Source of the DNA: Apoderus coryli
Taxonomy: Eukaryota > Arthropoda > Insecta > Coleoptera > Attelabidae
Direction: 5' to 3'
Length of the DNA: 64,000 nt
Assembly (NCBI GenBank): GCA_911728435.2
Contig: OU452208.1
Span: forward strand, 744,001-808,000
Position 1 is the stretch's first letter, and the number at the start of each line of letters is the position of its first letter. Shown piece by piece: positions 1 to 48,811 of the stretch. The notes beneath the pieces are model-generated. The model made no database searches. It was given only the letters and a program-made list of their open reading frames with translations, and had not been told where the DNA came from. Made by a program: the position numbers and the translations under genes.

Positions 1-660
1 GAGTGGAAATACATACAAAGGACTTTTGGAACCAAATTGACGAAATTATAAGAGAATCATCAGATAATCGATTTCAATCAGTAAGTTTTGATAACCCAGA
101 AAGTTCCAGCCTAAATACACCCCCAAATTTAATCATAGATAGAGACGATAACATGTCGCTACAAGTAAATGTAGACGAAGACATAAACCTTGACCTACCC
201 GAATTCCTACACGCAAATATACAACCAAATGAAAACGAAAATTTACATAAAAGTGACGATGGACATACTGTACATTCTAATTCCATTCAAAATCCTATAT
301 TTGAAATTCCTATAGTAGACTATCCGATAAACCATGGTAAAAACCAAATATTCATAGATACTGTTTTGCATTCTCCATCTCCACCTAAAAGACTACTCTT
401 ATATGAAACTAAGCAACGAATTAAAGTTCAACTCTCTGAAAATAATTTCGAACAAGACACTATTAATTTTGTGAAAAATTATATTTCTCCTGATGTTACT
501 TATCATGTATATTTCGAAAAACCTGATACTTATAAAAAGTTCTCTGTTATCTTGCAACGTGTGTTTTCCTCTAATGCATTGAAATTAAGAAAATGTAATG
601 CGAAACTCATTGACGTAACAAATAAACATAATATACAAGATATTATACAAATGTACCACG
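1..660 (+). mobile_element. Element A: 5' piece of errantivirus-type pol (RNase H-integrase linker), truncated by window edge
   Basis: The open frame from base 3 to the stop near 674 matches, at protein level, the linker between RNase H and integrase in the pol gene of element B (the shared run reads like SENNFEQD, then KLIDVTNK). The homology ends at 660; the last codons before the stop at 672-674 come from the inserted element B. The same frame resumes at 6319 with the integrase zinc-binding region. This is therefore the upstream half of one provirus (A) split by another. The protease, reverse transcriptase and RNase H parts of A lie left of the window. No start codon is expected here because pol is read as part of a polyprotein. 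Confidence 0.85.
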
Positions 661-678
661 AATTATATAATTAATCTT
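661..678 (+). repeat. 18-bp remnant of element B 5' LTR
   Basis: Bases 661-678 are identical to the first 18 bases of the element B 3' LTR (6067-6084). Directly after them comes the protease region of pol at 679. The rest of the 5' LTR, the primer-binding site and gag are therefore missing, removed by one deletion that leaves only the LTR tip. The left target-duplication copy CACG is at 657-660. Confidence 0.85.
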
Positions 679-3600
679 GCGAATTGCCTTATATAATTTT
701 ACCTGAGCATAACTTAAAATTATTAATCGATTCTGGGTCAACAAAATCTTTTATTGATCCTGATATAGCATTTAAAATTTTTCCAAAATTAATACAAAAT
801 GATCCATTTATTGTATCAACTGTTTTTCAACAATCTACACATAAATATAGTATTTTAATGCCATCTTCGAAAATTTTTAAACTACCTAGATTGACAAATT
901 TGAAATTTTATGTTTTTAAATTTCATGATACTTTTAACGGATTGATAGGATTAGACAATCTGAAAATATTACAATCAACTCTTAATTTCGAGAAAGGATT
1001 TTTGATCACACCTTATACCAAAATAAAACTTTTATTTCATAAAACAAAAAATGAGGTTGACAATAATAATGTGATTACTATACCTGGAAGACACGAACAA
1101 ATTATAAAAATTAAAACATCAATTAATAATGGAGAAATTATAGTACCTTATCAAAAAATTCAAAATTGCGAAATTCCAGAAAGTTTAACAATATCTTCAA
1201 ATGGCTATGCTCTAACAAGTATTTTAAACAGTAATTCTGATGATATAACCTTAGATCTATCAAATACTTTTGAAGTAGAAAATTTTGATAGGAAAAATAT
1301 TGAAAAATTTAATTTTAACAATTTTGACGACAGTAAAAAACATAAATTAGACATTTCTAAAATTTGTATCGATAATTTAAACGAAGAGGAAAAAGCAAAA
1401 ATAATTAATATTTGCAGAGAATTTGCTGATATATTTTATAACGAAAATGAACCCTTAACTTTTACAAGTAAAATAAAACATAATATAAAAACAACGGATG
1501 AAGTACCAGCTTACACAAAATCGTATAGGTATCCTTTTGTTCATAAGAAAGAGGTACAAAATCAAATTAAAAAAATGCTAGATCAAAAAATTATTAAACC
1601 AAGTGTTTCACCCTGGAGCTCTCCCATTTGGGTAGTCCCAAAGAAGATCGATGCCAGTGGCAAGCAAAAGTGGCGAGTTGTCGTTGACTATAGGAAACTC
1701 AACGCTAAAACTATAGATGACCGTTATCCTCTACCAAACATAACTGACTTACTGGATAAACTCGGAAAATGTCAATATTTTACCATTTTGGACCTAGCCA
1801 GCGGATTTCACCAGATCGAGATGAATGACAAGGACATTGAAAAAACAGCTTTTAATACAGAACATGGACACTATGAATTTCTGCGAATGCCCTTTGGACT
1901 GAAAAATGCCCCCGCAACCTTCCAAAGAGCAATGGACAATATACTACGTGGTATTCAGAACGAAAAATGTCTGGTATATCTTGACGACATAATAATTTTC
2001 TCGACTTCCTTACAAGAACATATCGAAAACTTAAGATCAGTATTTCAGAGACTACGCGATTCAAATTTCAAAATTCAAATAGACAAGTCAAAATTCTTAC
2101 AAAAAGAAGTAGGTTATCTAGGACATATAGTAACCCCCGAAGGTGTTAAACCCGATCCTCAAAAAATTAAAGCTATAAAAAATTTCCCCATACCTAGATC
2201 AACAAAACAAATAAAAGGATTCTTAGGACTTTTAGGTTATTATCGAAGATTCATCGATAACTTTGCAAAGATAACAAAACCTTTAACAAAGTGTTTAAAA
2301 AAAGGTGCAAAAATAGATTTAAACGATGAATATATTTCTTGTTTCGAAACCTGTAAAAATCTTCTTATTAATGAACCGATACTTCAATATCCAGATTTTT
2401 CCAAATCATTCAACCTTACAACAGACGCTAGTAATGTTTCGATAGGTGCCATCTTGTCCCAAGGCCCTATAGGCAGTGACCTTCCCGTTGCGTATGCCTC
2501 CAGAACCCTAAATGAATCTGAGAAAAAGTATTCCACAATTGAAAAGGAATTATTAGCAATTGTTTGGTCCACCAAGTATTTCCGACCATATCTTTATGGC
2601 AGGAAATTTAATATAATTACTGACCATAAGCCCCTACAATGGCTATTCTCATTAAAAGATCCAAATTCAAAGTTAATGTGTTGGCGTATTAAACTAGAAG
2701 AGTACGATTACACAATTACATATAAAAAAGGCAAACTAAACACAAATGCAGATGCATTATCGCGCGTCGAAATCCACACTAAAGAAACTGATAACGTTCA
2801 AAACGCAGATAATAGCCCAGAAAGTTTTAATTTAGATGAATTTATAAACGAAGTTGCAAATGTAATTTTACCTGATAAAACACCACAACTCGACAATGTA
2901 TCTTTACAAGTTAACTTAGACGAAACAGAGAACGATATACAGGATGAACATGACATACATAATAACGACAATACTATACATTCAAACGCAGAACAAAACC
3001 ATGTAGTGGACATACCAATTAGGGAAAATCCTTTAAATTTTGGACAAAATCAAATAATTATTACTTCCGTATTACATTCACCTAGTAAACCAAAGATTAC
3101 TATATTATTTGAGAAAAAGAAAAGAATTAATGTACAAATATCTGAAAATAATTTTGAACAAGATGTTGTTAACTTTGTAAAAGATTATATATCTCCAAAC
3201 TTTCAATATTACATTTATTTTGAAAATGAAAAACCTGGTATATATGAAAAGTTTTCAGCAGCGTTACAAAAACATTTCAAATGGCCGTCTATAAAATTAA
3301 AAAAATGTAATTCAAAATTAATAGATGTCACAAATAAGGACAACATCCATGACATTATTAAAAATTATCATGAAGGTAAGACAAATCACCGAGGTATTGA
3401 CGAAACAACAAGTAGAATAAAAACCAAATACTATTGGCCTTTCATAAAGCAATCTATACAGACATTTATTAATGATTGTGAAGTGTGTCAACAATCTAAG
3501 TATGAGAGACACCCTGTAAATATCCAGATGAACCTTACACCTACTCCTACACAACCTTTCCAAATAATCCATTTAGATACATTTACTTTAGAACAAACGA

Positions 3601-4373
3601 AGTTTTTAACAATTATAGATAGTTTTTCGAAATATGCTCAAGCATATAGCATTCCCACATTAGCAGGTACAGAAATAGTTAATAATTTATTAACCTTTTT
3701 CACCCACCACGGTATTCCTAAACATATTACAGTCGATAATGGTACTGAATTTAAGAATACTGTAGTACAAGAACTTTTCAAATTACACAAAGTCAATGTA
3801 CATTTTTGTTCACCTAACCATCCTCAATCTAATGGAATTATCGAACGATTCCATTCCACTATTATAGAACATATACGTTTGTTAAATACAAAGGGATTTT
3901 TAAAAACAAATATAAAAATGAAAATGATATATGCAATTCTTGCCTATAATCATTCGATTCATTCTGCAACAAAATTAAAACCAATAGATGTCATCAATGG
4001 ACATATCACTAGTAATGATCCATTTGATATGGAAATCGATTAGATACTAATTAATGACTATATCAATGAACACAAAGAAAAGTCTAAACTCATTTATTCT
4101 AAACTAAATTCCGATCTTATGCACAATAAAGAAAAACTTATTGAAAATCTAAACAAAGATAGAGACCATCCCGGTATCTTTCAACCTCAACAAACAGTTC
4201 ATATTAAAAAACATATAAGACAAAAGAATGCGAATAAATTTAGTAAATCTACTACCTTAACTGATGCAAATGAACAAAATAAAACTGTGTCTACTGAAAA
4301 TAGAGAAAAAATCCACATGGATAATTTAAATCGACCTTTAAAGCATACATATACATTTCCTAATAAAAATTAA
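679..4373 (+). pseudogene. pol: Element B pol (protease-RT-RNase H-integrase), one in-frame stop
   Basis: This is a Ty3/gypsy (errantivirus-type) pol polyprotein that has lost its 5' end with gag. The frame is open up to a TAG at 4041-4043 and then continues in the same frame to the TAA at 4371-4373. In order it shows an aspartic protease with the DSGS active site (about residue 16-19), a reverse transcriptase with YLDD near base 1980, an RNase H (TTDAS then ITDHKP), a divergent linker, an integrase zinc finger (HxxxxH-type segment then CEVC) and a DDE core with D in HLDTF, D in DNGTEF and E in IIERFHS. All catalytic residues that I can locate are kept. The single stop falls in the integrase C-terminal region, where element A has Arg. 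The first codon is TTG, so the apparent start is an artefact of the truncation. Confidence 0.92.
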
Positions 4374-4396
4374 AGTAAACAATTTGAACTTTTCAG

Positions 4397-6076
4397 ATTG
4401 CCCCTGATTTTGGGACAGACAAAAATAACTGTACGAAACTTGGATAAAAATACTGGACTTATACCACTGAAACTAGGAACGACAAAAGTAGAAGAATATT
4501 CGCACACTTTAATACATTATTACGATTTATCACCGATAGTCGAACAAGTTGAAAAACTCAAATCTCAAACTCATTCAATAATTAAAATAATTAATACACA
4601 TGGTGACTATTATTCTGATGTTTCAAATTATTACAAAGTTTTAAGATTTATAGAAGAAAAAGTGGAGACAAAAATTAATGAAATTATTCCTCAAGAAAGA
4701 ACTCGAACAAAAAGAGGTCTTATTAATGGAATAGGTTCAATCTTTAAAGCCATCACAGGAAACTTAGATGCCTATGATGCAGAACGATACGAAAGTTTAA
4801 TAAAACAGTTACAAGAAAATCAAAAAGAATTATCTTCAAAATTAAATAAGCAAGGATCTTTAGCAATTACTCTCATAGAAAAATTCAATAATACTATTCA
4901 ACAAATAAATCATAACGAAGAGCTATTGGAAAAGAAAGTGAAAGAATTTGCAAGTTACGTACAAAGGCAACATTATAAAGAAAATTCTATGTATATGAAA
5001 GAAGTTCTAAATCAAATAATAAATATGTACGAAATAATCAATTCAATTCTGCAGGATATCGAAAATTCCATTCTATTTGCAAGACTTCAAATTATGCATC
5101 CTAGTATAATCAAAACTTCGGATCTTTATCAAGAATTACTGATTTTACAAAAACATTTTAAAGAAGAACAATTTCCAGTCGAATTAACTTTACAAAATAC
5201 CCCTGTAATTGAACAAATAATTAAAATCGACAGCTATATATTTAATAACAGAATAACTTATATTTTACATATTCCTTTAATGTTTCCATCTAATTTCGAA
5301 ATGTATCATTTGTTTTCAATACCAATATTTTCGAAGGGTCAGTTTAAGGCTATTATACCTCAAAATAAATATTTAATAATAAATCAGTTGTACTACGCAT
5401 TTATGGGTACCCCCTGTAAGAAGATGCAACGCAAACTCTTCATTTGCGACAATATAAATTTGAACGAGATTTCCAGCGAAGCCAACCCTTGCGAAATCCA
5501 GTTGTTAAATTCGAAGAACACCTCCACATGCCAACAAACATCAATTGTTATCACCAAGCCTACCCTTAAGCAACTAGAAGCCAATTTATGGATCACGTTA
5601 CTTCCATCAACTCAATCAATCAAATTAAAATGTAATGAACAAGAAGAAATTGTTAAAATGATTGGAACTCATCTGTTCGATGTTCCTATTGATTGTCAAT
5701 TATCAGTCAATGAATGGACAATTACAAACAAACAACGAAAAATCAAGCAATTATGTTTCCTGAGTTAGACGTTGATGTAAAGTTCACACCTCAACCTAAC
5801 CTGAGCTTAACTCTAAAAGAAGTTAAACTCGATGAACTTCAAGATATCAAAACCCAATTTCTGAACAATGAAGCCGATTTAACGTTTCAAAAGGTCACCA
5901 AATATCCAAGTGTATGGACAATTCTAATCTACATATCCGCCACCATCGGAGTTTTATATATGTGCTACAAGAAACTTCGACCCAAACGAATCAAGTCGCA
6001 ACCACCCCAGGAGTTAGATGTTCAGCTACCTCAGTTACCCTCCTTCGCTGAATCTTCGAGGGGAGGAATTATATAA
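4397..6076 (+). pseudogene. env: Element B env, baculovirus-F-like envelope protein, frameshifted
   Basis: Envelope gene of the insect endogenous retrovirus type. It opens directly after a 3' splice acceptor (tttcag, 4391-4396), as expected for an env made from a spliced subgenomic RNA, and has no convincing ATG of its own. A furin-type site RTKR is followed by a GLINGIGS-type fusion peptide and the LDAYDAERY motif shared by errantivirus Env and baculovirus F proteins. A heptad-rich stretch follows. The frame runs to a stop at about 5768. The C-terminal part, with a membrane segment near 5920-5980 and a short cytoplasmic tail, is in another frame (about 5714-6076), so there is a frameshift between about 5714 and 5768. 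The protein is not expressible intact. Confidence 0.88.
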
Positions 6077-6314
6077 TTAATCTTCATATGAAGTATATGA
6101 AATGTATATGATAAATATTGTTTATCTCGCATAAGTTAATAATTGTTTATGTAGTTATTTTTTCATTACTTTGCTTAATATTATTTTTTCAGTTAGGACA
6201 GTCAGTCAGAAAGAAGCTTTTGAATGTATAAGATATAATTTTGAAACTTAAATTGTAATTGTTTAATAAAATAAAGTTTTTAAAAACATAGATCTTTGGC
6301 GTTGTGAGATAATT
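6057..6314 (+). repeat. Element B polypurine tract and 3' LTR
   Basis: The polypurine tract gaggggagg (about 6058-6066) primes plus-strand synthesis. The LTR runs from 6067 (aattatataatt) to 6314 (ataatt), 248 bp, with inverted AATT-type ends as in errantiviruses. It has an AATAAA-type signal near 6267. The base after it begins the right target duplication CATG (6315-6318), which pairs with CACG at 657-660. Boundaries were set by where element A coding resumes. Confidence 0.82.
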
Positions 6315-7286
6315 CATGAAAGCAAAACAAACCATCGTGGCAAAGACGAAACATTTTCTCAAATTAAAGGCAAATACTATTGGCCAAATATGAAATCTTC
6401 TATACAAACATATATCAATGAATGCGAAATATGTCAACAATGCCAATACGAAAGGAACCCTATTAAAATTCCAATGAATCTGACCCCTACAGCAAATCAT
6501 CCTTTTCAAATTGTTCATCTAAATACCTTTACTTTTGAACAAAATAAATTTCTTACAATAATTGATAGCTTTTCCAAATTCGCACAAGCGTATATTCTTA
6601 ATTCTTCCTCAGGCATTGAAATAGCTGATAATCTACTAAACTTCTTTAGCAATCATGGTGTACCAAAACAAATAATTGTAGACAACGGTACTGAATTTAA
6701 AAATTCTGTTATCACTGAATTTTTGGCCTTGCATAAAGTTAAAATTCACTTTATATCACCAAATCACCCAGACTCAAATGATATTATAGAAAGATTTCAC
6801 TCAACAATTATTGAACATCTTCGATTGCTTAATAATCAAAATTTCTCAAAATGTTCGGTAAAAAGCAAAATGGTGTATGCTGTATTAGCCTACAACCATT
6901 CAATACATTCAGTAACTAAATTGAAACCTATAGACGTTATTAAAGGGCATATTACGAATAATGAGCTGTTTGATATAAACATTGATCGAATATTAATAAA
7001 CGACTATGTAAATAACCACAAAGAAGAGGCCAAACTACTTTACGGAAAAATTAATTCGGATATAATTCAAAACAAAGAAAAGATAATATCAACACATAAT
7101 AAAGGTTGCGATGATCCTAACATTTTTAAACCAAACCAAAAAGTCTTTCCAAAAAAGCATGTACGGCAGAAGAATGCAAACAAATTCGATAAACCCGCCA
7201 CTGTTCAATCAGTAAACATCGAGAGAAACACTGTATCAACTGACACTCATAACAAGATTCATATGAGTAATTTAAACGTCCCTTGA
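6315..7286 (+). pseudogene. pol: Element A pol, integrase and C-terminal part
   Basis: This continues the reading frame that stops at 660. It holds the integrase zinc-binding segment (TNHRGKDE, then CEICQQC), the DDE core and the C-terminal domain, ending at TGA 7284-7286. Compared with element B, the first catalytic Asp is changed: HLNTF here against HLDTF in B. The residues before the catalytic Glu also differ (DIIERFHS against GIIERFHS). The second Asp (DNGTEF) and the Glu are kept. The Asp-to-Asn change should abolish strand transfer. The frame is otherwise open, so the integrase was probably lost by point mutation before or after B inserted. Confidence 0.88.
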
Positions 7287-7403
7287 GGAATGTTTATTCA
7301 TTTGATGCTAACTAAAAAAAAATAATTAAATATAGTTTAATATATGCACTTACTTCAGTTACATAAACTAGTTGTTTACACATTTTTCTTACTTACATTA
7401 CAG

Positions 7404-9041
7404 ACTTCCCGGAGTTCACGGACTCTCAGAAACCATTACGCAGCGAAACCTTAACAACAACCTTGGTCTAATTCCAATGAAGATAGGCAGTGGGAAAATT
7501 ACAAAATTCTCACATTCTATTATATTTAATTATGATCTTAATTCTATTTTGAACGAAGTTGAAAATTTAAACATAAAATCAAAATTTCTTACTAGTACGA
7601 TTAATAAAAACACCCAATACCAAAATGATAGTTCAAATTATTTAAAAATTTTAAATTTTATCAAAGAGAGGGTACAAGACAAATTAAATGAAATAGTGCC
7701 CCAAAGAATCAGAAACAAAAGAGGTTTAATAAACGGTTTAGGCTCTGTATTTAAATCAATCTCTGGCAACTTAGATGCGTATGATGGTGAAAGATATGAT
7801 TCATTAATAAAAGAACTTCAGAAGAATCAAAACGAGCTCTCTTTAGCTGTTAAAACACAAAATACACTCTCTACTGAAACTATGAACAAATTTAACAACG
7901 CAATTCAACGGATAAACCATAATGAAAAAGTGTTAGAATCAAGAATAAATCAAATTTCTCTAATAGTAAAAGGAAGTGTTTATAAGGAGAATAGCTTTTA
8001 TATAAAAGATGTTATAACTCAAATAATAAATATGTTTGAGATAATTGAATCAATTTTACAGGATATTGAAAACTCTATAGCTTTTGCAAAACTTGGATCA
8101 ATGCATCCTAGCATTATTAAAACAAAAGAATTATTTAATGTTCTTAAACAAGTAGAATCAAAACTTACCTCCGATACAGTACCAATAAATCTCACTCTTG
8201 GAAACATCCCAATAATACAAAAAAAAATAATTAAAATAAATTGTTTTATATTCAATAATAAAATTACCTATATTCTTCATCTTCCTATAACCTATTCTGA
8301 AACCTTTAATCTATACCACCTTTATTCTATTCCTACACCTTTTGAAGGTCAGTTTAAGGCGATAGTTTTAACAAATAAATTTCTCGCGAAAACTAAATTG
8401 CACTACGCATTTTCTGGTACACCCTGTATTTATGTGAAATGGAAATACAAGACTACGCAGAAATCAAAGACAATCCTTGTGAAGTTCAATTACTAGAATA
8501 TAAAACTGCTTCTTCATGTAAACAAACTCAAGTCACCATACCGAAGCCTACATTTAAAAGGCTTAGTGAATCAAATCAGTGGTTAGCCTTCCTACCAGTA
8601 ACAGAATTGGCTACCCTAAAATGTCCAAGTCAAGAAGAAACAATCGAAATCAAAGGAACGCACCTATTCAGCATACCTCCAAAGTGCACGTTGAAAATTG
8701 CAACAGAAATATTAACGAACGATGATGAAACGTTAATTAACATACCTCCAACATTATTTCCACAACTAGACTACTCAACTCCAAACACAGAAATTAAACT
8801 TCCATTAGAAAAATTAAATCTAGATGAAATTCAAGAAATCCACATTCCGTACGATCCAAAACTTCACTTTCTGCCAGTGACGAGAAACTTGAATATTTGG
8901 ACAATCACTGCGTTTTTTGTAATTATGCTAATGTTCAGTTATTTCGTTTATCAAAAATATAAACAGTGGTGTTGTAAAAGACATTCAACAAATCAAGAAG
9001 AACCTGGAATCAACCTAGCTAATGTTCGACTCCCTCAGTAA
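7404..9041 (+). pseudogene. env: Element A env, envelope protein, frameshifted
   Basis: Envelope gene related to that of element B. A splice acceptor (acattacag, ending 7403) precedes it by 0 bp. The first frame runs to about 8430 and shows the furin-type site RNKR followed by GLINGLGS and LDAYDGERY, then a helical region. The frame changes near 8425-8440, where about 20 bases present in B are missing after the GTPC motif; the rest of the ectodomain, the membrane segment (near 8900-8950) and the tail are read from 8439 to the TAA at 9039-9041. The break separates the fusion subunit from its membrane anchor. Confidence 0.87.
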
Positions 9042-24979: not shown

Positions 24980-25217
24980 GTACCTGCACCCGCTTTTGGC
25001 CACGTTAGAGCGTCTCCCCCCACCTCAATGCTGTAACTAGACAACTAAGCCCTTTAGCCAAGTTGAAAATAGTTGATTTTTTTTATAATAAAATTATTTT
25101 GCCTCCTTTTCTACTATTTACGAAGGCCTATGTAAACAAAATTGTTATGCTGCATGTTGTAGGTTATCTTATATCAAATTAGCTAATTTTTCTTTTATAT
25201 TTGGAATTTTTGTTTTC

Positions 25218-25462
25218 TTCTAGCGTGAACAGGCAATATGCCTGTTCACGCTAGGTGTCGCCACAAACATCTCTCTCTCAATCAATTCTCGTGCTAGTAT
25301 AAGCTCTTTGTCAATGTTGGAAATTTAGGTCACACTGCCTGCCGATCACCACTGATGAGTCGTGGATCGACGAAACGGCCGTCTGGTGGAAGCATGGTAG
25401 TGTGAAATAAATTTCCAACATAACTTAAAGTCTTGTTGCTTTATGTAACAAGCAATTCTTAA
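25218..25462 (+). mobile_element. Hammerhead-ribozyme element, copy 1 (~244 bp, 12-13-bp TSD)
   Basis: It is inserted in a satellite monomer with the duplication ATTTTTGTTTTC at 25206-25217 and 25463-25474. The element starts with a perfect 16-bp hairpin (25220-25254, loop ATA). Next come an unpaired segment, the inverted pair gttggaaattt (25316) and aaatttccaac (about 25409) enclosing the ribozyme, and a cttgtt/aacaag hairpin at the 3' end. No open frame is present. The variable-length TSD, with no LTR or TIR, indicates target-primed retroposition. Confidence 0.85.
25346..25389 (+). ncRNA. Type I hammerhead ribozyme (copy 1)
   Basis: Core CTGATGA at 25352-25358. Stem II is GTCG (25359-25362) with CGAC (25368-25371) and loop TGGAT. 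GAAA lies at 25372-25375. Stem III is A-C (25375-25376) with G-T (25381-25382) and loop GGCC. The cleavage triplet GTC ends at 25383. Stem I is TCACCA (25346-25351) with TGGTGG (25384-25389), five Watson-Crick pairs and one wobble. Every conserved core residue of the hammerhead is present. A two-pair stem III is typical of Penelope/retrozyme-type ribozymes that work best as dimers. Confidence 0.9.
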
Positions 25463-26842
25463 ATTTTTGTTTTCGTTTTTGACCCTTTTTTATACTATTT
25501 TCAAACGCCTGTGTGAACCAGTTCATTTATGTAACATTTTTTAGGTTATATACTATTACAACTATGAAAAATCATTCTGTATTTCGAATAAGCTTAGGCA
25601 GTATATATTTTTTTATTTCGACCCCTTTTACACTATTTACGAACGCCTATGAAAACAAGTTATTTATAACACATTTTATAGGTTATATTCTATCAAAGCT
25701 ATAAATAACTAGTCAATATTTCTGCTATTTTTAAGAAGTACGTTTTTTTCTAACCTTTTCACCCCATTTCACACTTTATTCGTATGTCAATGTAGTCTAA
25801 TTGTTTAGGTTAAATATTTAATTAAACGCACAAAAAATTAATCAACATTTCGGATAAGTTTAAGAACTATGATTTTTTTAATTTTTGAACCCTTTTTTTT
25901 AAACCTCTTGCCTACGCTCAATGTTAATCACTACCTATAAATATCAACTATTTTTTTTATTTTACCCCCTTTTCTACTATTTACGAACGCCTATGTAAAT
26001 AAAATTTTTATGCTGCATTTTGTAGGTTATCTTATATCAAAGCCATATATAATTAGCCAATTTTTCTGGTATATATGGGAAACGTTTTTTTTTTCGTTTT
26101 TGATCCTTTTTTTAAACTATTTTTGAACGCCTGTGTGAACCAATTCTTTTATGGAATATTTTTTAGCTTATATTGTATCACAACTATGAAAAATTATTCC
26201 ATATTTCGAATAAGTTTAGGAAATATATTTTTTTTTATGTTTTGACCCCTTTTACAATATTTACGAACGCCTATGAAAATAAGTTATTTATGACACATTT
26301 TATAGGTTATATTCTATCAAAACTGTAAATAACTAGTTAATATTTCTGCTATGTTTAAGAAATACGTTTTTTTCAAATCTTTTTTACCCCATTTTACACT
26401 ATTTTCGAACGCCAATGTGGTCTAATATTTTATGTTAAATATTTTAGGTTATGTTCAATTAAATGCGTAAAAAATTATGCAGTATTTCGGAAAAACGTTT
26501 CCCAAATATACCAGAAAAATTGGCTAATTATATATAGCTTTGATATAAGATAACCTAAAAAATGCAGCATAAAATTTTTATTCACATAGGCGTTCGTAAA
26601 TAGCAGAAAAAGGGGTAAAATAAAAAAAAATTAAAATGTAAAAACTTTATATTTAACTAGATGAATTGGTGTTAAAAATACACGACAAAAATTAATGTAC
26701 CAGAAAAAATTTGTATCCGTGATAACTCAAAAACCACTTAACGGATAACCTACAACATGCAGCATAACAATTTTGTTTACATAGGTGTTCGTAAATAGTA
26801 GAAAAGGGGGCAAAATAAATTTTATAATAAAACTAAAAAAAA

Positions 26843-28439
26843 TCAATTAATTTGCGTTCAAGAACTTGGCCTAGATCTGAAATATAAAATATCTGCGTAT
26901 AAATAGTGCCTCCAAAGAGAAGAAAAAGGCACAAAACCCGATACGAAAAAAATAGCTGATGTCTAAAACAAAACAAAAATTTATTAAATTTAGATAAATG
27001 ACAAAAAGGTCATAAAATTATTACTTTTACACTTAAATATGGAGAGCTATTCGTGCCTCGAGGGCAACAGTTTATTTCCGGTGAAATTAAAAAAAAAAAA
27101 ATTTTTTTCATGAAACTAATGGTCTCCATATATACATATATGATATGGAGAGCTAATAATTCTCCTCTTTTGAAATTGTTTGCCTGTCTTGTACCTTTAA
27201 ATTTTATTTCAATGTAAAAAACTGTTATGTTGGTATTTACCACTTGAGTTCATTTCTGGGGTTTCCATATATTTTTTTTATACCTTACACTATATTACTT
27301 TACTTACCTGTTTTTATTTAATAGTATAGAAACCAAACTCCAGGTAAACAAAGTAATATTGTGTAAGGTATAAAAAAATATATATGGAAAAACCCAGAAA
27401 TGAGCTTATGTCAGATATTCTTTTACCATTTTAGAAGAAGCGAAACACGTGTAATGTACATAAATTAAAAATAAAATTAGTGGAAATTAATAACTTTAAT
27501 TTAATATGAATGTCCATGGACAGTTACATAATATCAAGTTTACAGGTTGGGTAGATGGGGGATAGATACTACATAGTTTGTAGGTTACTAAGATAACGTC
27601 CCATATTCCAAAAACCATAAGTTTTTCAACCTATGTTTTTAGAGGTAAACCACCCAAAAATTAGTTATTCCACATTCTGTTAAAGTTCTGATGGTAAAAC
27701 CACGAACTCCCTGTATAGCATACATTTTTTTTCACATTGTTACAGACCATTATAAATCGATCTTTGCCATTTATTAAGAAAACTAAGATATGTCAAACAA
27801 TTAGTTATATAAAAAAATTATTATCTTTTTGGCTTTTAGTAGCATTCAAGAACACAGAATCACAAACATTTCCCTGCGGAAATGTATCATTAACATTACA
27901 TTAAAACGCATTTTTCCCTTGTATTTTAGACGTTTTTCCGAAAATAGAAAAAAATCTATATATAACCTTCATCTTTTTAAGGTTCAGGTTAAAATCTTTT
28001 TATTCTCTTCAGATCGCCCATGAGGTTCAATAGGTATATCCTTAGCGAGTCGAAATCAATATAAAAAAAATTCTTGTGCATTTCCTATGGTACCATTTCC
28101 ACAGTCAACAATTAACTGAATATTGAGATCTATCAATTAGCTCCAAACATGCCGTACAATTATGTTTACTCTGTGACATACTTGGGAGATAATGCTAACG
28201 AGCAAACTTAAAAAGAAACCAAACTTCAGAAATCAAAAATAATATTGTAAGGACAACCTGTATATACGCAAATATATAAGTATATTATTTGTTTTATGTA
28301 TTTAAAATTCTTTTACTTGCTATCCTAAACAATTTTTTTTATAACTTGATTAATTTCATGCTCTCCTACGTTAAAACACTTTTACAATGAATAAGCGAAC
28401 AAAACTAAAAACTACCTCCGTTTATTACTACCACTACTG
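26843..28439. other. Noncoding, with a ~70-bp inverted repeat
   Basis: Arms at about 27245-27312 and 27338-27412 (ttccatatat... ataccttacac and its complement) are separated by about 25 bp and make a MITE-like palindrome. A gctctccatat palindrome lies near 27120-27155. No gene is seen. Confidence 0.6.
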
Positions 28440-33170: not shown

Positions 33171-33499
33171 AAAACAATTTTTTATTAGTGTCTAATCCTA
33201 GACATTATATTTAAAATAAATAATATTTTTTTATTATTAGCTAAAAATTATACCACGACGCCTATGACTAAATATTCACAATTCTTGCAAATAGTTTGCA
33301 ATTTTTACTTAAAAGCATTTTTTAAACGTTCCATATTTTTACTTAGGTTGCATTTTTAATAATTTATATTGAATATTTGTACATAATAATGTAAATTAAA
33401 TTAGTAACAATTTTAGCTGTTTTCAGCATTATTTTGTATATAAATAGTCGATTAATTTTTAATAAAATCAGATTCAATCAAACATTGTTTCTCAATTAA

Positions 33500-33665
33500 A
33501 ACCACCACTGTTGCACAAGTCACCTTTATGCCTAGTAGGGGAGTGAGACTGCTCTTCCTAACAGTGGTTCCTAACTAACAAACCAACACTGTTGCACAAG
33601 TAACCTTTATGCCAAGTAGGGGAATGAGACTGCTCTTCCTAACAGTGTTGCTTAACTATTACCGC
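33500..33665. repeat. Two tandem ~82-bp units
   Basis: The segment cactgttgcacaag... tcttcctaacagtg occurs at about 33503-33581 and 33585-33663 with a few differences. Each unit has complementary ends (cactgtt / aacagtg) that can form a hairpin. It precedes the minisatellite of element C and probably belongs to its leader. Confidence 0.7.
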
Positions 33666-33780: not shown

Positions 33781-34350
33781 AGTTGAATCTACAAACACAC
33801 ATCCTTCGGTCCATAAGCGTCCAAGGAGCCACTAACAAACAGCCTTCGGTCCATCAGCGTCCAGGGAGACAATTACAAACAACTCTCGGTCCACCAGCGT
33901 CCAGGGAGAGAATTACAAACAGCCTTCGGTCCATCAGCGTCCAGGGAGACAATTACAAACAACCCTCGGTCCACCAGCGTCCAGGGAGCCAATTACAAAC
34001 AGCCTTTGGTCCATCAGCGTCCAGGGAAACAATTACAAACAACCCTCGGTCCACCAGCGTGCAGGGAGCCAATTACAAACAACTCTCGGTCCACCAGCGT
34101 CCAGGGAGAGAATTACAAACAGCCTTCGGTCCATTAGCGTCCAGGGAGACAATTACAAACAACCCTCGGTCCACCAGCGTCCAGGGAGCCAATTACAAAC
34201 AGCCTTTGGTGCATCAGCGTCCAGGGAGACAATTACAAACACCCCTCGGTCCACCAGCGTCCAGGGAGCCACTAACACAACATCCTTCGGTCCACAGCGT
34301 CCAAGGAGCCACTAACAAACAGCCTTCGGTCCACCAGCGTCCAAGGTGCT
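33781..34350 (+). repeat. Minisatellite, about 14 units of 40 bp, element C leader
   Basis: Units of the type agccttcggtccatcagcgt plus ccagggagacaattacaaac repeat every 40 bp with small variations. Because 40 is not a multiple of 3, the open frame across it cycles through three reading frames and is an accident of the repeat, not a gene. Confidence 0.85.
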
Positions 34351-34395: not shown

Positions 34396-35929
34396 ATGTC
34401 CATGACGACAGATGAACTTAACCAGCTAGCCAAGCTACAAGAGGAGCATGGGACACAGATTCTTCAACTCCTCACCAACGCCAAAAAGGACTCAGTTAAA
34501 CGAAAAACTGAAACTTACATCGCCGACCGCCTACAACAATTAGAAGAAATTTGGAAAGCCGTCCAAAAAATCAATCAAAAAATACGAATACTGGATGTTC
34601 CAAACCGTCCATATAATACAAAAAACTATTATCAACAAATTATAGCCAAGTACGAAGAAGCAATACGATACCTCAACGAATGCCCTAAAGCCATATTAAA
34701 GGTTTATTAAATGTTGTAGGTAAAGTTAACAAATGGCTATTCGGTACTTTAGATTCTGAAGACGAAGAAAAATATAATAATGCTATATATAAATTAGAAC
34801 AAAACCAAAAGGACTTAGCACATGAAGTAAACTTACAAATTTCTTTATCAAAAAATCTAATTAATCATTATAATAAAACAATCCAAATATTGTATAATAA
34901 TCAAGAAAAACTTGAACAAGGTTTCAAACAACAGTTCAATCTAGTATTAAAGATGTTAATGATTACATTAGTTTTCACGGAACTATTTCACAAATAAACT
35001 TAGATTGTCAAAACATAATAACATTTATCGATAATATCGAAAATGCTATCATATTTTCAAAATTAAATACGCTACATAATTCTATCATATCGAGCTATGA
35101 AGTTAGGGAAATGATAAATTATTTAGGTAAACTCTACGGGAAAGATGAAATTCCAAATTTTACAAATATAATAACCTATTATCAGTTTTTAGGCACACAA
35201 GTGACCATTTCAAATTTAAAACTAATTTTTGCTATTCATGTTCCCATTTTACAAACCGAAGTTCTTAAATACTTCCATCTATATCCTATTATCCAAAACC
35301 ACAAAATGTATACCCCAAAATATCCTTATTTGGCACAAACGGCAACAAACGCACAATTCCAAGAAGAAGATTGTCCACGTTTGGAAGACGTTTACTATTG
35401 TCAAGAAAGTCCTGTGTTACCAGACGCATGCACACTTAAATTTATGAACGGCGAAACCCCAGAACAGTGTCAAACCTGGGAAATCAACGCTGAAAACTCC
35501 ATAACTTATCAAGTTACGCAAAATATGATCCTGATAATACCGCCAAAACCACAAAAAATATATTCAAAATGTCAATCCAACCAATATTTGGAAATTAGTT
35601 CTCCAGTATTAATAAAAATACCACTAACATGTGAAGTTCACATCGATAACGAAAAGTTTATGAACAATCACGAAATGCAACATGGTAAACCATTAATCTT
35701 ACCAAAATTAGAAATCAAAAAATTAAAAAGTCCAAAAATGTTCGAAGCCTCAAATTTTACAAAACTCAATTTAGAAGAAATGTATCGAATAAACGAAATA
35801 ACGAAGCAACTCAAACCGATCATGCTACGAGATATCACTGAAGAAAAGTCTACATTATTTACTACAATCCTCATCATCATAGCAATCACAATCATCACAT
35901 ATTTTGGATGGAAAGTTTGGAATAGATGA
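34396..35929 (+). pseudogene. Element C: internally deleted provirus, gag N-terminus abutting env fusion subunit
   Basis: ATG at 34396 (or 34402) opens about 103 codons of gag-like sequence (KKDSVKRKTETYI, then RLQQLEEIWKAV). At about 34702 this is followed at once, in another frame, by an envelope fusion-peptide region (GLLNVVGKVNKWLFGTLDSE). The furin site, the surface subunit and all of pol are gone. The envelope continues with stops near 35000 and then an open frame from 35111 to TGA 35927-35929, Cys-rich, ending in a membrane segment (near 35850-35920). The envelope family is the same as A and B but distant. Not expressible as one protein. Confidence 0.82.
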
Positions 35930-36202: not shown

Positions 36203-37219
36203 TTTTAAAAATCGTTTCAAAGTTAATTTATCCAAAATTTGGAATAGACCACCAGGATCAAATGAGGTCATAAAACACCTGTGAGATAAAAACACTGAGA
36301 TGATATAAGAAATTAGGTATCCATTTCATTACAGTTCTATTTCTTTATTTTTATAAATAAATATTCACGAAAAACATGACTCTATATAATTTCCAACTAG
36401 CTGTCATCACAACATTGTTTACTATTCAAGTACCTAATACTAAGGCTGCCCCGACGATTGACGCAAAGGCACATATTGACAAAAATCACATATTACATAT
36501 AATTTCATAAATAAAAATGTGAAACTAACAGGAAAAATTATCGAGTTTCAAAAAAAAAAAAAGAAATAAAAATAAATGACATTGTAAAATTGTGAAAAAT
36601 GTCCTGCTGAATCCAGTGTAGTGGGAAAAGTGTTCAATCATAATTTGAAAATGAAGTACATTCTAATGCCGTTTTTCATTTTTTCGATTGTTAAAAATAC
36701 CCGGGTAAATTTTCTGGTAATAACAAAAGTAGCATCGGTTATGAAAAATCACCATAGCAACGGCGACAATACAACTAAACCATATTGACAGTTATTAATT
36801 AATACTAATAAATTATTTCGCTAATTTCGAAGGTTTCAAAGCTATTTATATAATAAAAAACAGTGATAGTGATAGTGAATATAGTTTAACACCACCAAGT
36901 CAATGTAATACTTTTAACTCATCGTATGTAGGCTTACGCCAACAGGGCGAGTCTAGGTAGGTTTCGAAAAACAAATATTTTCTTAAAAATGTTTAATTTA
37001 TTCAAAAGCATTAAAACAGTCTTAGAAAAAGTATAGTGTGAAACTCACATGCAACGACCATTTCCTAATCGTATGATTTGCATGATCCTCGTACGAAATA
37101 TATTATGTAATTTCATGTTCGTTGCACAGTATACTATTTTTTTTTCTTTTATGTATTATAACAATAAATATGTTCTTTTTTTAGATATAATCACTAGTCG
37201 ATTATTATTTCTTTACGAA
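36203..37219. other. Noncoding; one small signal-peptide-like ORF
   Basis: ATG 36376 opens about 45 codons starting MTLYNFQLAVITTLF and reaching KAAPTIDAKA, which looks like a secretory signal. It stops at about 36510. No splice donor or homology supports it as a gene, so I leave it as an observation. Confidence 0.3.
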
Positions 37220-37367
37220 TTGCTTGTTACATAAAGTAACAAGACTTTCAGTTATATTGGAAATTTGTTTCAATTCAATTCAATTTTGCTTTCACCAGAC
37301 GGGCCGTTTCGTTGATCCACAACTCATCAGTGGTGATCGGCAGGCAGTGTGACGCAAATTTCCAACA
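37220..37367 (-). mobile_element. Hammerhead-ribozyme element, copy 2 (~148 bp, 8-bp TSD)
   Basis: A 5'-truncated copy of the element at 25218. It begins (minus strand) at the tgttggaaattt arm and runs to the acaagcaatt 3' end. Duplication TTTACGAA lies at 37212-37219 and 37368-37375. It lacks the hairpin-bearing 5' part of copy 1. Confidence 0.82.
37292..37336 (-). ncRNA. Type I hammerhead ribozyme (copy 2)
   Basis: The minus strand reads TCACCA-CTGATGA-GTTG-TGGAT-CAAC-GAAA-C, then loop GGCCC, then GTC and TGGTGA. Stem I has six Watson-Crick pairs. Stem II differs from copy 1 at both members of one pair (C-G to T-A), so pairing is kept. The core is unchanged and the stem III loop has one extra C. 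Confidence 0.88.
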
Positions 37368-37492
37368 TTTACGAAGAGAAAATGAATAATAAGATGATTA
37401 AGAAATCAAACAATTATTGTAATTGAGTTCGGTATACACAAAAATACAGTTTCTCTGGACGACCCAGAATATTACTGATGTCACTGGGAAAT

Positions 37493-42571: not shown

Positions 42572-43440
42572 ATCAATTTTGTTTCAGTTCAAAGCTTGGA
42601 TTTGGATGAAAATATACTAATTGTTTGACAGCGACTGATAGTTGCTAAAGTTACTTCGCTATGTTTTTGCAGCATGTCACGCCAAATTTTCAAAGACGCA
42701 TCTAACATTATTTGAAAACATTATTAAAACAAAAGTTTTAAAAGATAAGTGGCAAGTTTTATATATATTTCGAAAGGTAATTTAATTCCTAAAATGAATA
42801 TGCAAAAATAATCCATAAGAAAAATTACAAATTTATGTCATAGTTTCAACAAAAAAATTAACTAGAGACACCACTGGATTCCTCTCAAAAAAGTGCGAAT
42901 GGTTTCACAGAAACAAAAAATAATCATAAATAAATAAGTTACAGGGGTAGGTTAAAAATGCACAAAAGTCAAAACCACCCTGTATCTTTTAAACGGTTCA
43001 AGATATCGAGGTGCGGCTTTCGGCATTTGATTTCGTTTGAAAATCGAGCTCGTATCATGTAGGTTAGTTTTCTTCTAATTCCTCTAGAAATCGGTGTTTC
43101 CTATCAAAAGTGTCCATTCACACTTCAATTTTATGACATTACCTGAATGTCCTAGTTTTTTTGATGACGACCGTACATATTGAATGTTACTTTGGCAGAA
43201 CAATATTTTTAAAGAGAGAGAGATGTTTTTGGCGACATCTAGCCTGAACAGGCAATATGCCGGGTGAAACACAGTTCACAAACGATGGCCGGACAAGAAG
43301 TAACAACTCCATTATATCCTATTGCCAACACTAGATGCGCCCGAATCCCCTAGCAGGGAGGCTTTATTTAAGAATTACTTGTTACATAAAGCAACAAGAC
43401 TCTTAAGTTATGTTGGAAATTTGTCCACACTACCATCCCT

Positions 43441-43484
43441 TCACCAGACGGCCGTTTCGTCGATCCACGACTCATCAGTGGTGA
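43441..43484 (-). ncRNA. Type I hammerhead ribozyme (copy 3a)
   Basis: The minus strand has TCACCA, CTGATGA, GTCG-TGGAT-CGAC, GAAA, C-GGCC-G, TC, TGGTGA. All core residues match and stem I has six Watson-Crick pairs, making this the most perfect copy in the window. Confidence 0.9.
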
Positions 43485-43576
43485 TCGGCAGGCAGTGTGA
43501 CCCAAATCTCCAACAATTCTCGTGCTAGTAAAAGCTCTTTGTAAATGTTAAAGATTTGGGTTACACTGCCTGCCGA

Positions 43577-43620
43577 TCACCACTGATGAGTCGTGGATCG
43601 ACGAATCGGTCGTCTGGTGA
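43577..43620 (+). ncRNA. Hammerhead ribozyme (copy 3b), core mutated
   Basis: Same layout as copy 3a, but GAAA is GAAT at 43603-43606 and the stem III loop is GGTC. The last A of GAAA normally pairs with the U of the cleavage triplet, so cleavage should be weak or absent. Confidence 0.8.
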
Positions 43621-43707
43621 AGGCATGGTAGTGTGGAACAAATTTCCAACATAACTTAAGAGTCTTGTTGCTTTATGTAACAAGCAATTCTTTAATATTT
43701 TTAAAGA

Positions 43708-47014: not shown

Positions 47015-48085
47015 TCAACACCTTCCCTTATTCAATGTATTGGTTACTCCCAATCGTCCTCGAAGTTCTTGCAGTCTCGGTTTGAATAATGGCTTAGTTA
47101 ACAAATCAGCGATTTGTGATTTACCATCTATTTTCTTTATCAGAATTTGACCATCCACTACAAGTTCTCGAACAAAGAAATGTCTAATTCTGATATGTTT
47201 TGTGCGCCGGTGAAATTCAGGATTTTGCACCAATTTGATTGCAGCTTCATTATCAACAAATAGGACTGGAACACTTTTCAAATCGTGAATTTCATTGAAC
47301 AATCTCATTAACCAGACAAGTTCTCGAGCACCTTCACTTGCAGCTACAATTTCTGCTTCTGTAGTTGAAATTGCTACTGAAGACTGTCTTTGACTCATCC
47401 AAGATAATTCTCTCTTCAAAATTCCCTTAACGTGTTTTTTATTCTGGTGTCCTAATCTTTCATGATACAGCTGAAGAACATTTTCAATCTCAACAACATT
47501 TGTTTCATTTTCTTGATTTGGAATGATATTTTTCATGTCTAGCTTATAAAGTCCACCATGTATGATTCTTCTTCCAATCAAAATTATCTTTCCATCAATT
47601 TTAAAATAACAAATTTGTGACGTTGAAATAAATTCACTGTTTGTTCTTTTATCTTGTGCAGAAAGAACTGAGAATAAATTCTTTTTAATACTAGGAACGT
47701 ACCAAACATCTTCTAAACGAATAAAAGTAATGTTTCCATTGACATTCGCTTCAACTTCAATCGTGCCTTTTCCTAAAGCGCTTATTTTATCACCATTTGC
47801 AGTTGTTACTGTACGATGCTCACTAAAATATTGAAAATTAGTAAACAAATCACTTCTGTGACATATATGGTTTGTTGCACCATTATCTACAAACCAATGT
47901 TCATCATCAATATTAACTGTTAAGACTGTTTTTGTCAAAGCCATTAGTGATACTGTAGTCTGTGCAAAATTACCTTTTTCTACGTTATCTACCTTAGGAG
48001 GTCTTCCATCAGCCTTCGATTTAAAACACTGTTTTACCATATGACCAGCCTTGTTACAATACTTGCAAATTATTTCTTTCTTCAA
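47015..48085 (-). pseudogene. pol: Copia pol with in-frame deletion of integrase and RT
   Basis: 356 residues with a zinc knuckle (CKYCNKAGHMVKQC), an aspartic protease (WFVDNGATNHI), and the pre-integrase region (LYHERLGHQN). Right after KRE it jumps in frame to the RNase H C-terminal part (LSWMSQRQSSVAISTTEAE, then DNEAAIKL, then ADLLTKPL). The integrase core and the whole reverse transcriptase are missing, but the frame is kept. It cannot move by itself; an autonomous relative must have copied it. The stop lies at the start of the 3' LTR. Confidence 0.9.
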
Positions 48086-48088
48086 TTT

Positions 48089-48811
48089 TTAATTCTTTGA
48101 AAAATTCTTCTTTGTACCTTTTACCAAAAGAACTTCTTCTTGATTATTTTCTTCATTTTTACTTAACAATGCTTTCTCAAAAGAGCAAAGTTGGATTGTT
48201 AAATTTTCAACTGATCTTTCTGATTTTACCATCAGGGACCAACTTGACTTAAATGAAAAATAATCATCTGGTAAAGTTGACAAAATTTTGCAAAGTAACA
48301 ATAAATCTGGTAAACCACAGTTACAGGTACTTCCATTTGTGGACTTTTCTTTTGATAATTCATATTGTAAATCACTCCACAAATTTTTGAGTTTAGAAAC
48401 ATGCGTCGAAATATCATCGTTAGCGTCTTTCTTATAATTGAAAAACTTCGTGCACAAATCATACGATTTTTCCTCAACAGCACCGTCATACAATCTATGA
48501 AGTTCTAACCACATATCTCTAGCTGTATTAAATCTCATAACTTTTTGTAAAGTATCTTGTGTCATATTGAGAGTAAGCAAAAACAAAGCATTACTATCAG
48601 CTTGATTAAAGGTAGCGAAATCTCTGTCATACTTGGTTTGTTGTTCATTTGTTACTCCTTCTGCAGGTAAAGGTAAAGGTTTTTGCAATTTACCTTCCAA
48701 AATATCATTTGCACCTGGAATACTCCGTAACAAAATATTTAACTTAAACTTCCATGTACTCCAATTTTGTTTTCCTTCAAGCAAACCGATCTGAATTTTA
48801 CTTGCATCCAT
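48089..48811 (-). CDS. gag: Copia Gag
   Basis: 240 residues starting MDASKIQIGLLEGKQNW, the standard Copia Gag N-terminus (UBN2-type region), with WSTWKFKLN and the LYDGAVEEK segment. It ends at a TAA (48089-48091). The next codons, in the same frame, lead straight into the zinc knuckle and protease, so a single in-frame stop separates gag from pol. That stop may be a mutation or a readthrough site. Confidence 0.85.
   Translation of the reverse strand: MDASKIQIGLLEGKQNWSTWKFKLNILLRSIPGANDILEGKLQKPLPLPAEGVTNEQQTKYDRDFATFNQADSNALFLLTLNMTQDTLQKVMRFNTARDMWLELHRLYDGAVEEKSYDLCTKFFNYKKDANDDISTHVSKLKNLWSDLQYELSKEKSTNGSTCNCGLPDLLLLCKILSTLPDDYFSFKSSWSLMVKSERSVENLTIQLCSFEKALLSKNEENNQEEVLLVKGTKKNFSKN

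Follow-up and report, generated by a model that had tools for sequence, protein, structure and literature searches.

A putative non-LTR retrozyme of the beetle Apoderus coryli with palindromic, two-ended insertions resembling those of Penelope-like elements

We found that a 245-bp non-coding insert in the genome of Apoderus coryli is best read as an animal (non-LTR) retrozyme, a truncated copy of a unit of 336 nt found in tandem arrays throughout the genome. The insert lies in a window of 64,000 nucleotides (contig OU452208.1, positions 744,001 to 808,000 of assembly GCA_911728435.2), from whose first letter all window positions are counted. What can be read directly, there and at related loci, is the scar of insertion: a hammerhead motif, arrays, target duplications, an empty site, arms joined head to head, two kinds of outer end (A and B) and sequence variants that the two arms of a locus have in common. 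We consider it quite probable that we are dealing with a truncated, non-autonomous retrozyme of the animal type. Its hammerhead would cut the RNA into 336-nt units, which would likely be closed into circles, and Penelope-like elements (PLEs) would probably supply in trans the reverse transcriptase and the GIY-YIG endonuclease that copy it back into DNA.

The insertion and its target site

The limits of the insert, taken by direct reading of the window, are given together with its other features in Table 1. An earlier sequence-only reading had put the element at 244 bp, one less than measured, but its 12-13-bp target duplication stands (12 bp, or 13 with one ambiguous A). On the plus strand the 12-mer ATTTTTGTTTTC occurs in the window at only two places, immediately left and right of the insert. 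When the flanks are joined across the insert they align without gaps to two paralogues, L079 (172 of 174 positions identical) and L078 (171 of 174), each of which carries the target once. The direct duplication is legible, as had been claimed; the empty site, however, is best seen in these paralogues and not in the neighbouring monomers of the flanking repeat, which are ~63-93% alike. Likewise, the insert does interrupt a repeat, yet not the satellite monomer that had been supposed. Since the joined flanks match two dispersed paralogues, the flanking repeat (25052-25217 and 25462-26365, 97-98% identical to L078 and L079) is no simple satellite but a dispersed repeat associated with a GIY-YIG fragment, found in both paralogues a few hundred bp upstream of the match. 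A PLE remnant may have given rise to the flanking tandem repeat or may have joined it. Matches to this repeat are also present on the minus strand, up to window position 27077.

Table 1. Features of the insert and its relatives in the window
Feature	Position	Strand	Basis
Target duplication, left copy, ATTTTTGTTTTC	25206..25217	+	Direct reading; single in empty-site paralogues L078, L079
Retrozyme insert, 245 bp, related to the 336-nt unit (98-99% identity) but truncated	25218..25462	+	Genome matches, unit alignment
Short inverted arm, unit positions 106-128, B side	25220..25242	-	Unit alignment (L005 1515-1537)
Main arm, unit position 113 to A end (unit 336)	25239..25462	+	Unit alignment
Extended helix I, with arms on either side of the ribozyme at 25314-25339 and 25396-25421	25314..25421	+	Inverted repeat, 26-nt arms, 88% complementary
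Type I hammerhead motif, predicted cleavage 25383/25384	25346..25389	+	RF00163 32.3 bits, E 2.9e-6; conserved in 17 distinct copies
Hairpin CTTGTT...AACAAG just before the A end	25432..25452	+	Direct reading
Target duplication, right copy	25463..25474	+	Direct reading; single in paralogues
Decayed single-arm relative, hammerhead motif 37292-37336	37213..37378	-	87% identity to unit; RF00163 28 bits, E 4.8e-5
Target duplication of second retrozyme insertion, left, AATATTTTTAAAG	43202..43214	+	Direct reading
Second, older head-to-head insertion, B end left, A end right	43215..43693	.	Minus arm 94.7%, plus arm 91.6% identical to unit
Hammerhead motif of its minus arm	43441..43484	-	RF00163 33.8 bits, E 1e-6
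Target duplication of second insertion, right, AATATTTTTAAAG	43694..43706	+	Direct reading

The insert is made of two arms, ~23 nt on the B side and ~224 nt on the A side, which meet at the unit's own inverted repeat GGCA-TAT-TGCC; the stretches 25220-25235 and 25239-25254 are 100% complementary. Its B-side outer end falls ~24 nt short of the usual B end, and its opposite end, site A at 25462, would correspond to a start site of reverse transcription. The 5' part of the hairpin just before site A, AAGTCTTGTT, is common to a second, 333-nt family described below.

The lack of coding capacity that had been noted was borne out, as the ORF list of the window holds no frame of at least 130 aa overlapping the insert and ATG frames in a dimer of the 336-nt unit reach 49 aa at most. 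A reverse transcriptase plus GIY-YIG endonuclease frame was absent from both in the ORF scan, which rules out identity with an autonomous PLE and leaves the element as a possible PLE client. By eye, neither LTRs nor a PBS or PPT were seen in the insert or at the ends of its relatives; a plant LTR retrozyme is ruled out by the type I match and the 12-bp duplication.

Two further relatives lie in the window. The plus-arm core of the older head-to-head insertion (43215-43693) reads GAAT instead of GAAA, and around the decayed single-arm relative (37213-37378) no target duplication was seen by eye. Rfam models mir-3165, mir-1992 and MIR5229 match positions 43464-43597 at 46-52 bits, all below their gathering scores, most likely only because of the head-to-head palindrome. 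Elsewhere in the window, gypsy-like frames with env-like ORFs and copia-like frames were recognised by eye in the ORF list (1-9041, 35111-35929 and 47015-48811), and TRF reported tandem repeats at 33795-34343 (40 bp, 13.7 copies) and 33499-33658 (81 bp, 2 copies) that are unrelated to the insert.

The hammerhead motif

A cmscan of positions 25100-25560 matched the hammerhead type I model RF00163 over its full length (model 1-45) at 25346-25389 on the plus strand, with 32.3 bits and an E-value of 2.9e-6. The core (25352-25383) has all of CUGAUGA, GAAA and GUC, in agreement with the complete type I core and GTC cleavage triplet seen in the sequence-only reading. That reading had also anticipated an RF00163 hit above threshold. 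The window copy itself lies below the Rfam gathering score of 34 bits for this model, which is why the whole-window scan at gathering score listed nothing, and at the same score nothing was reported in 20 fetched loci; but its 32.3 bits are a graded match, and two relatives in the same genome exceed the gathering score with 37.4 and 34.4 bits. Helix III is very short: ACGGCCGT can be read as 2 bp with a GGCC loop or as a self-complementary 8-mer. The window hammerhead RNA is predicted to cut itself between 25383 and 25384.

The best fold given by RNAfold was not the hammerhead, and on the ribozyme core the program favoured a non-hammerhead fold (-16.6 vs -7.4 kcal/mol), these energies ignoring hammerhead tertiary contacts. 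Compared with its shuffles, the 269-nt stretch has a far lower folding energy (z -9.5), mostly owing to its hairpins. Across 17 distinct copies, 94.5% of cells retain the hammerhead pairing, and helix II shows double changes in 3 cells, at 2 pairs. A covariation score as high arose in 2 of 500 shuffles, and as many double-changed pairs in 32 of 500. Displacing the partners by -3 also gave the identical two counts of double changes; the support from covariation is therefore slight.

The core pattern is present beyond chance. In the 428-Mb genome, CTGANGAGNCN{4,12}GNCGAAAC occurs 1474 times on the forward and 1520 times on the reverse strand, against 0 and 1 for a reversed control. Sorting by hand assigned 85 of the first 100 listed places to the retrozyme type and the other 15 to other core types. 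These 15 (e.g. C1 7184735 and 9702666; L059, L069) mostly read CTGAAGAG...GTCGAAAC, and in those fetched neither a clear helix III nor a clear cleavage triplet was found. Perhaps they are old minimal hammerheads of PLEs.

A genome-wide family of 336-nt units

The 269-bp query has at least 140 matches in the genome, counting the window itself and partial matches, and the 336-nt unit, with its reference taken from L028, has at least 234. Many of the listed unit matches are 99-100% identical and stand in head-to-tail arrays of period 336 at distant loci. The unit has 44% GC and a circular-fold z of -6.4. A second, diverged family is built of a 333-nt unit (L070, L074 and L077); the reference units of the two families are identical over a 47-nt block spanning the ribozyme and also share the motif CTAGRTGTCGCCA and the block AAGTCTTGTT, the remainder being widely diverged. 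Several traits of a retrozyme are found together: a type I core, a unit within 170-400 nt, low GC, tandem arrays and duplications longer than 4 bp, the window copy being a truncated monomer. The description of the insert as a retrozyme-like non-autonomous retroposon, made before the genome was searched, is supported as the best one for an element with a 336-nt unit of 44% GC, a type I hammerhead, tandem arrays and, wherever the duplications are intact, lengths of 12-16 bp for these.

The arrays might instead be the remains of a fossil element, expanding at the DNA level through unequal crossing-over as satellites do, the hammerhead being irrelevant. Such decay is visible in the window, where the insert is single and truncated and where both the plus arm of 43215-43693 and the copy at 37213-37378 are decayed. 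However, satellite growth at the DNA level is countered by the target duplications and fixed ends of most arrays (see below) and by the near-identity of many units at distant loci to one reference, and a dispensable ribozyme sits poorly with a 47-nt block conserved without change between the reference units of two families that otherwise differ widely. We regard this explanation as very improbable indeed.

Paired ends, target duplications and joints

Retrozyme cores tend to lie head to head. The first 85 retrozyme-type cores of contig C1 fall into 60 clusters, 15 of which have more than one core; 13 of these 15 are of mixed orientation, and all 13 are arranged head to head, none tail to tail. 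The ends of insertions were analysed at 38 loci, namely 4 relatives located separately in the genome, 25 from the 269-bp query (5 overlapping ones dropped) and 2 and 8 from the first core-pattern places, minus L032, whose array runs off the locus. The set is not a random sample, and the two further relatives in the window are outside it. An outer end was scored as A if it fell at unit positions 333 to 8 (336-nt unit) or 330 to 8 (333-nt unit) and as B if it fell at 150-169 or 153-167, respectively.

By this script, one outer end is A and the other B at 20 of the 38 loci, which are all those with both outer ends on a defined site, and outward A/A or B/B pairs occur at none of the 38. These 20 loci have the paired ends of a PLE-like insertion plan, by which we mean arms placed head to head, a plain end opposite a tailed (B) one, and an AT-rich duplication of 10-14 bp. 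As for the other 18 loci, five have an A end and a truncated 5' side; three A and two B ends are accompanied by an unclassified outward end; two loci, the window copy and L007, combine an A end with a shortened B end; four single-arm insertions (two with A, two with B) have their other side near B; one single-arm insertion is A/A; and one is unclassified. By eye, A and B ends are also seen at L034, L061 and L071, in which one arm is only ~8-12 nt long. Two single-arm insertions, L018 (1503-2025), with its 5' end at the B site, and L019 (1501-1838), which spans one unit plus 2 nt from A to A, may be linear or once-around copies.

Target duplications accompany a large part of these insertions. 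An exact flanking repeat of at least 9 bp is present at 22 of the 38 loci, the window copy among them, vs 1.35% of 1480 permuted flank pairs, and the median exact repeat over the 38 loci is 12. The expectation that sibling loci would carry the duplication is accordingly upheld at these 22, but 16 of the 38 lack an exact repeat of this length. Leaving aside L004 (9 bp), the remaining 21 duplications measure 12-16 bp and are 86% A+T, compared with 68% in the flanks. Five more were recognised by eye (L026, L031, L061, L071 and, with one mismatch, L074).

The inner joints were scored at 20 loci. Filler is present at four; among the 16 filler-free joints, ten overlap by at least 2 nt (16% expected, p 2.8e-5, equal bases assumed), although three of the ten (L005 to L007) represent one joint site. 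This overlap fits microhomology joining. With the three joints left out of that scoring (L016, L017 and L030) added, 17 of 23 head-to-head joints connect arms whose first unit positions differ by more than 10, and the other six connect arms that start within 10. These numbers bear on snap-back self-priming, which has been proposed for PLEs (PMC3846280, available text) and which would produce a palindrome from one cDNA and not from priming on two target strands. The six joints with arms starting within 10 unit positions, among them that of the window copy at GGCA-TAT-TGCC, are what it would lead one to expect, since symmetric joints are its prediction; the 17 asymmetric ones argue against the copying of a single cDNA, as do outer ends that represent two different fixed sites and never the same site twice among the 20 paired loci. 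Snap-back copying is decidedly unlikely in our estimate.

A LINE-type non-LTR retrotransposon could also be imagined as the mobilising element, the palindromes then being products of ordinary twin priming, with the second target strand priming at an internal RNA site. Twin priming likewise yields arms with both 3' sides outward and joints with microhomology, and the usual range of LINE target duplications covers the 12-16 bp observed here. But across the 20 paired loci the internal start does not vary, being fixed at site B, no poly(A) tail was apparent at any end that was read (the TC run that holds the B end of the 336-nt family is part of the unit), and the same paired ends recur in PLEs of the same genome, as described below. 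We think LINE mobilisation unlikely. The sequence-only reading had spoken of a TPRT-type duplication; the target duplication is real, but palindromes with one A and one B end favour priming on two strands over plain one-sided TPRT. Most insertions being palindromic with one A and one B end, as PLEs are, points to two-strand priming.

A probable single template for both arms

At diagnostic variants the arms of the same insertion disagree in 0 of 62 cells over 14 loci, these being the loci, out of 25, in which both arms cover a diagnostic site; shuffling the arms gave a mean of 17.2 disagreements and a minimum of 4 in 20,000 shuffles. Private variants occur in both arms at L030 (97G>A), L031 (28G>A) and L032 (an inserted T, placed by the aligner at 188 or 189). 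Other private variants are confined to a single unit, as expected of later mutation or copying error. Because both arms carry the same variants of their locus, a single RNA sequence probably served as template for each insertion. Gene conversion between arms is another possible source of their likeness.

Penelope-like elements of the same genome

GIY-YIG matches number at least 150 in the genome, many of them as minus-then-plus pairs. We fetched 12 PLE loci and could read both ends in nine, each of which combines a plain with a tailed end and has a duplication of 12-14 bp. In each of the eight palindromic copies measured (L050, L051, L052, L053, L055, L056, L064 and L067) the 12-14-bp repeat fits only the combination of a plain and a tailed end, with a tail of ~25-35 bp. 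The ninth copy, L057, has its tail on the left, its plain end on the right and ATAATCTACCTA on both outer sides. At L066 a single plain end was seen, together with a tail match apart from it; L054 and L065 belong to other families and had no match to the ends of the main PLE family.

L050 contains an open frame of 728 aa with RVT_1 and GIY-YIG domains. The first named of its protein matches are from beetles (Molorchus, Aromia and Tribolium), and others are from a springtail, a midge, mosquitoes and a mealybug; a PDB sequence search with the PLE frame gave no match. The terminal region of L050 has a hammerhead-like motif (RF00163, 18.3 bits, E 0.07), and a loose pattern detects such a minimal motif in all eight measured copies. 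RF00163 gave no match in L053, a member of the second PLE family, and a strict hammerhead script missed the motifs of both main families. In L056, a third type of hammerhead-like motif, with 5 pairs in stem III, was noticed at 1118-1311 and 6346-6522, in 87% inverted arms that flank the palindromic PLE; possibly it is another ribozyme element that the PLE entered.

The retrozyme B site and the tails of the two PLE families are not significantly alike (p 0.13-0.77), nor is a shared CGCCAAA significant, and sites A and B are 152 nt apart in the retrozyme vs ~34 nt in the main PLE family. A search for PLEs with a tail like the B site yielded no matching element, and a third GIY-YIG class proved to be none other than the dispersed repeat in which the insert lies.

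Discussion

Animal non-LTR retrozymes, as described by Cervera and de la Pena (2020, PMC7229834), have a type I hammerhead with a short helix III in a unit of 170-400 nt, and in the available text of that study they agree with the elements analysed here in these respects (units of 336 and 333 nt), in GC below 50%, in tandem copies, in duplications longer than 4 bp when present, and in co-occurrence with PLEs that reportedly bear minimal hammerheads. In contrast, head-to-head palindromes, A/B ends or variants shared by arms are not described in that text. Plant LTR retrozymes (PMC7761336, available text) are likewise non-autonomous and hammerhead-bearing and have circular-RNA intermediates, which for our elements are putative, but they have a type III hammerhead, LTRs with PBS and PPT, and 4-bp duplications, none of which was seen here. 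The hammerhead satellites of newts, schistosomes and cave crickets are also type I tandem repeats, of ~330 bp in newts; the portions of PMC7229834 and PMC2837043 at hand describe them as satellites, whereas most arrays in A. coryli are bounded insertions with target duplications. The kind of element is already known. As far as the open-access literature available to us goes, what is new is that the insertions follow a palindromic, two-ended plan and that this plan matches the one seen in PLEs of the same genome; we found no paper there that ties retrozyme insertions to the PLE plan.

Which element mobilises animal retrozymes was left open in the available text of PMC7229834, PLEs being named as strong candidates. 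Their candidacy rests there, and in what is available of PMC7761336, on shared hammerheads, tandem copies and co-occurrence. Our results add the scar itself. Endonuclease-bearing PLEs are reported (available text of PMC3846280 and PMC11167929) to share head-to-head copies, AT-rich targets, short duplications and hammerheads with the retrozymes studied here, and to have an optional 30-40-bp tail at one end; their duplications are 8-10 bp in the rotifer examples of these sources vs 12-14 bp in our nine copies. The retrozyme differs from them in having no reverse transcriptase or endonuclease and in its 152-nt rather than ~34-nt A-B distance. Since retrozyme insertions carry the same marks as the PLEs of this genome, PLEs are the likely machinery that copies them.

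Experiments with purified PLE protein, in the available text of PMC11167929, offer a scheme into which these ends could fit. The protein cuts and extends both target strands and reverse transcribes from two adjacent internal RNA sites, which define the tail; the start sites are the same on both strands, and the hammerhead is dispensable for insertion in vitro. By analogy, A and B would be the two starts of this PLE scheme, which the retrozyme ends fit. A plausible course of events would then be as follows. The hammerhead would cut retrozyme RNA into 336-nt units, which would be closed into circles, as circular RNA has been reported for other animal retrozymes (PMC7229834, available text). A staggered cut ~12 bp apart would expose two target 3' ends. 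Priming by one of these ends would start reverse transcription at site A, and priming by the other at site B, on the same RNA. A cDNA might follow the circle for more than one turn, giving tandem units, and the two cDNA ends would be joined, often via microhomology, into a palindrome. The reverse transcriptase and GIY-YIG endonuclease of a PLE would do this copying in trans. Self-cleavage, circle formation and the PLE enzyme as copier are what we infer.

A bolder form of this proposal holds that retrozymes are PLE clients copied from a single circular RNA with obligatory priming by one target strand at A and by the other at B, that both cDNAs roll around the circle and are sealed head to head by microhomology, and that the pairing of one A with one B end is a general rule of PLE integration. 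We would give this version about an even chance. If true, the one-A-one-B rule would explain both the PLE tail and the palindromes.

Overall, retrozyme and PLE scars in one genome agree in plan, in paired ends and in duplications, and thereby offer a direct test with defined RNA sites. For PLE integration, the pairing of A and B ends speaks for priming on both strands, from two RNA sites, rather than for the self-priming proposed in the available text of PMC3846280. The same pairing would also give a reason for these elements to have a circle-making ribozyme.
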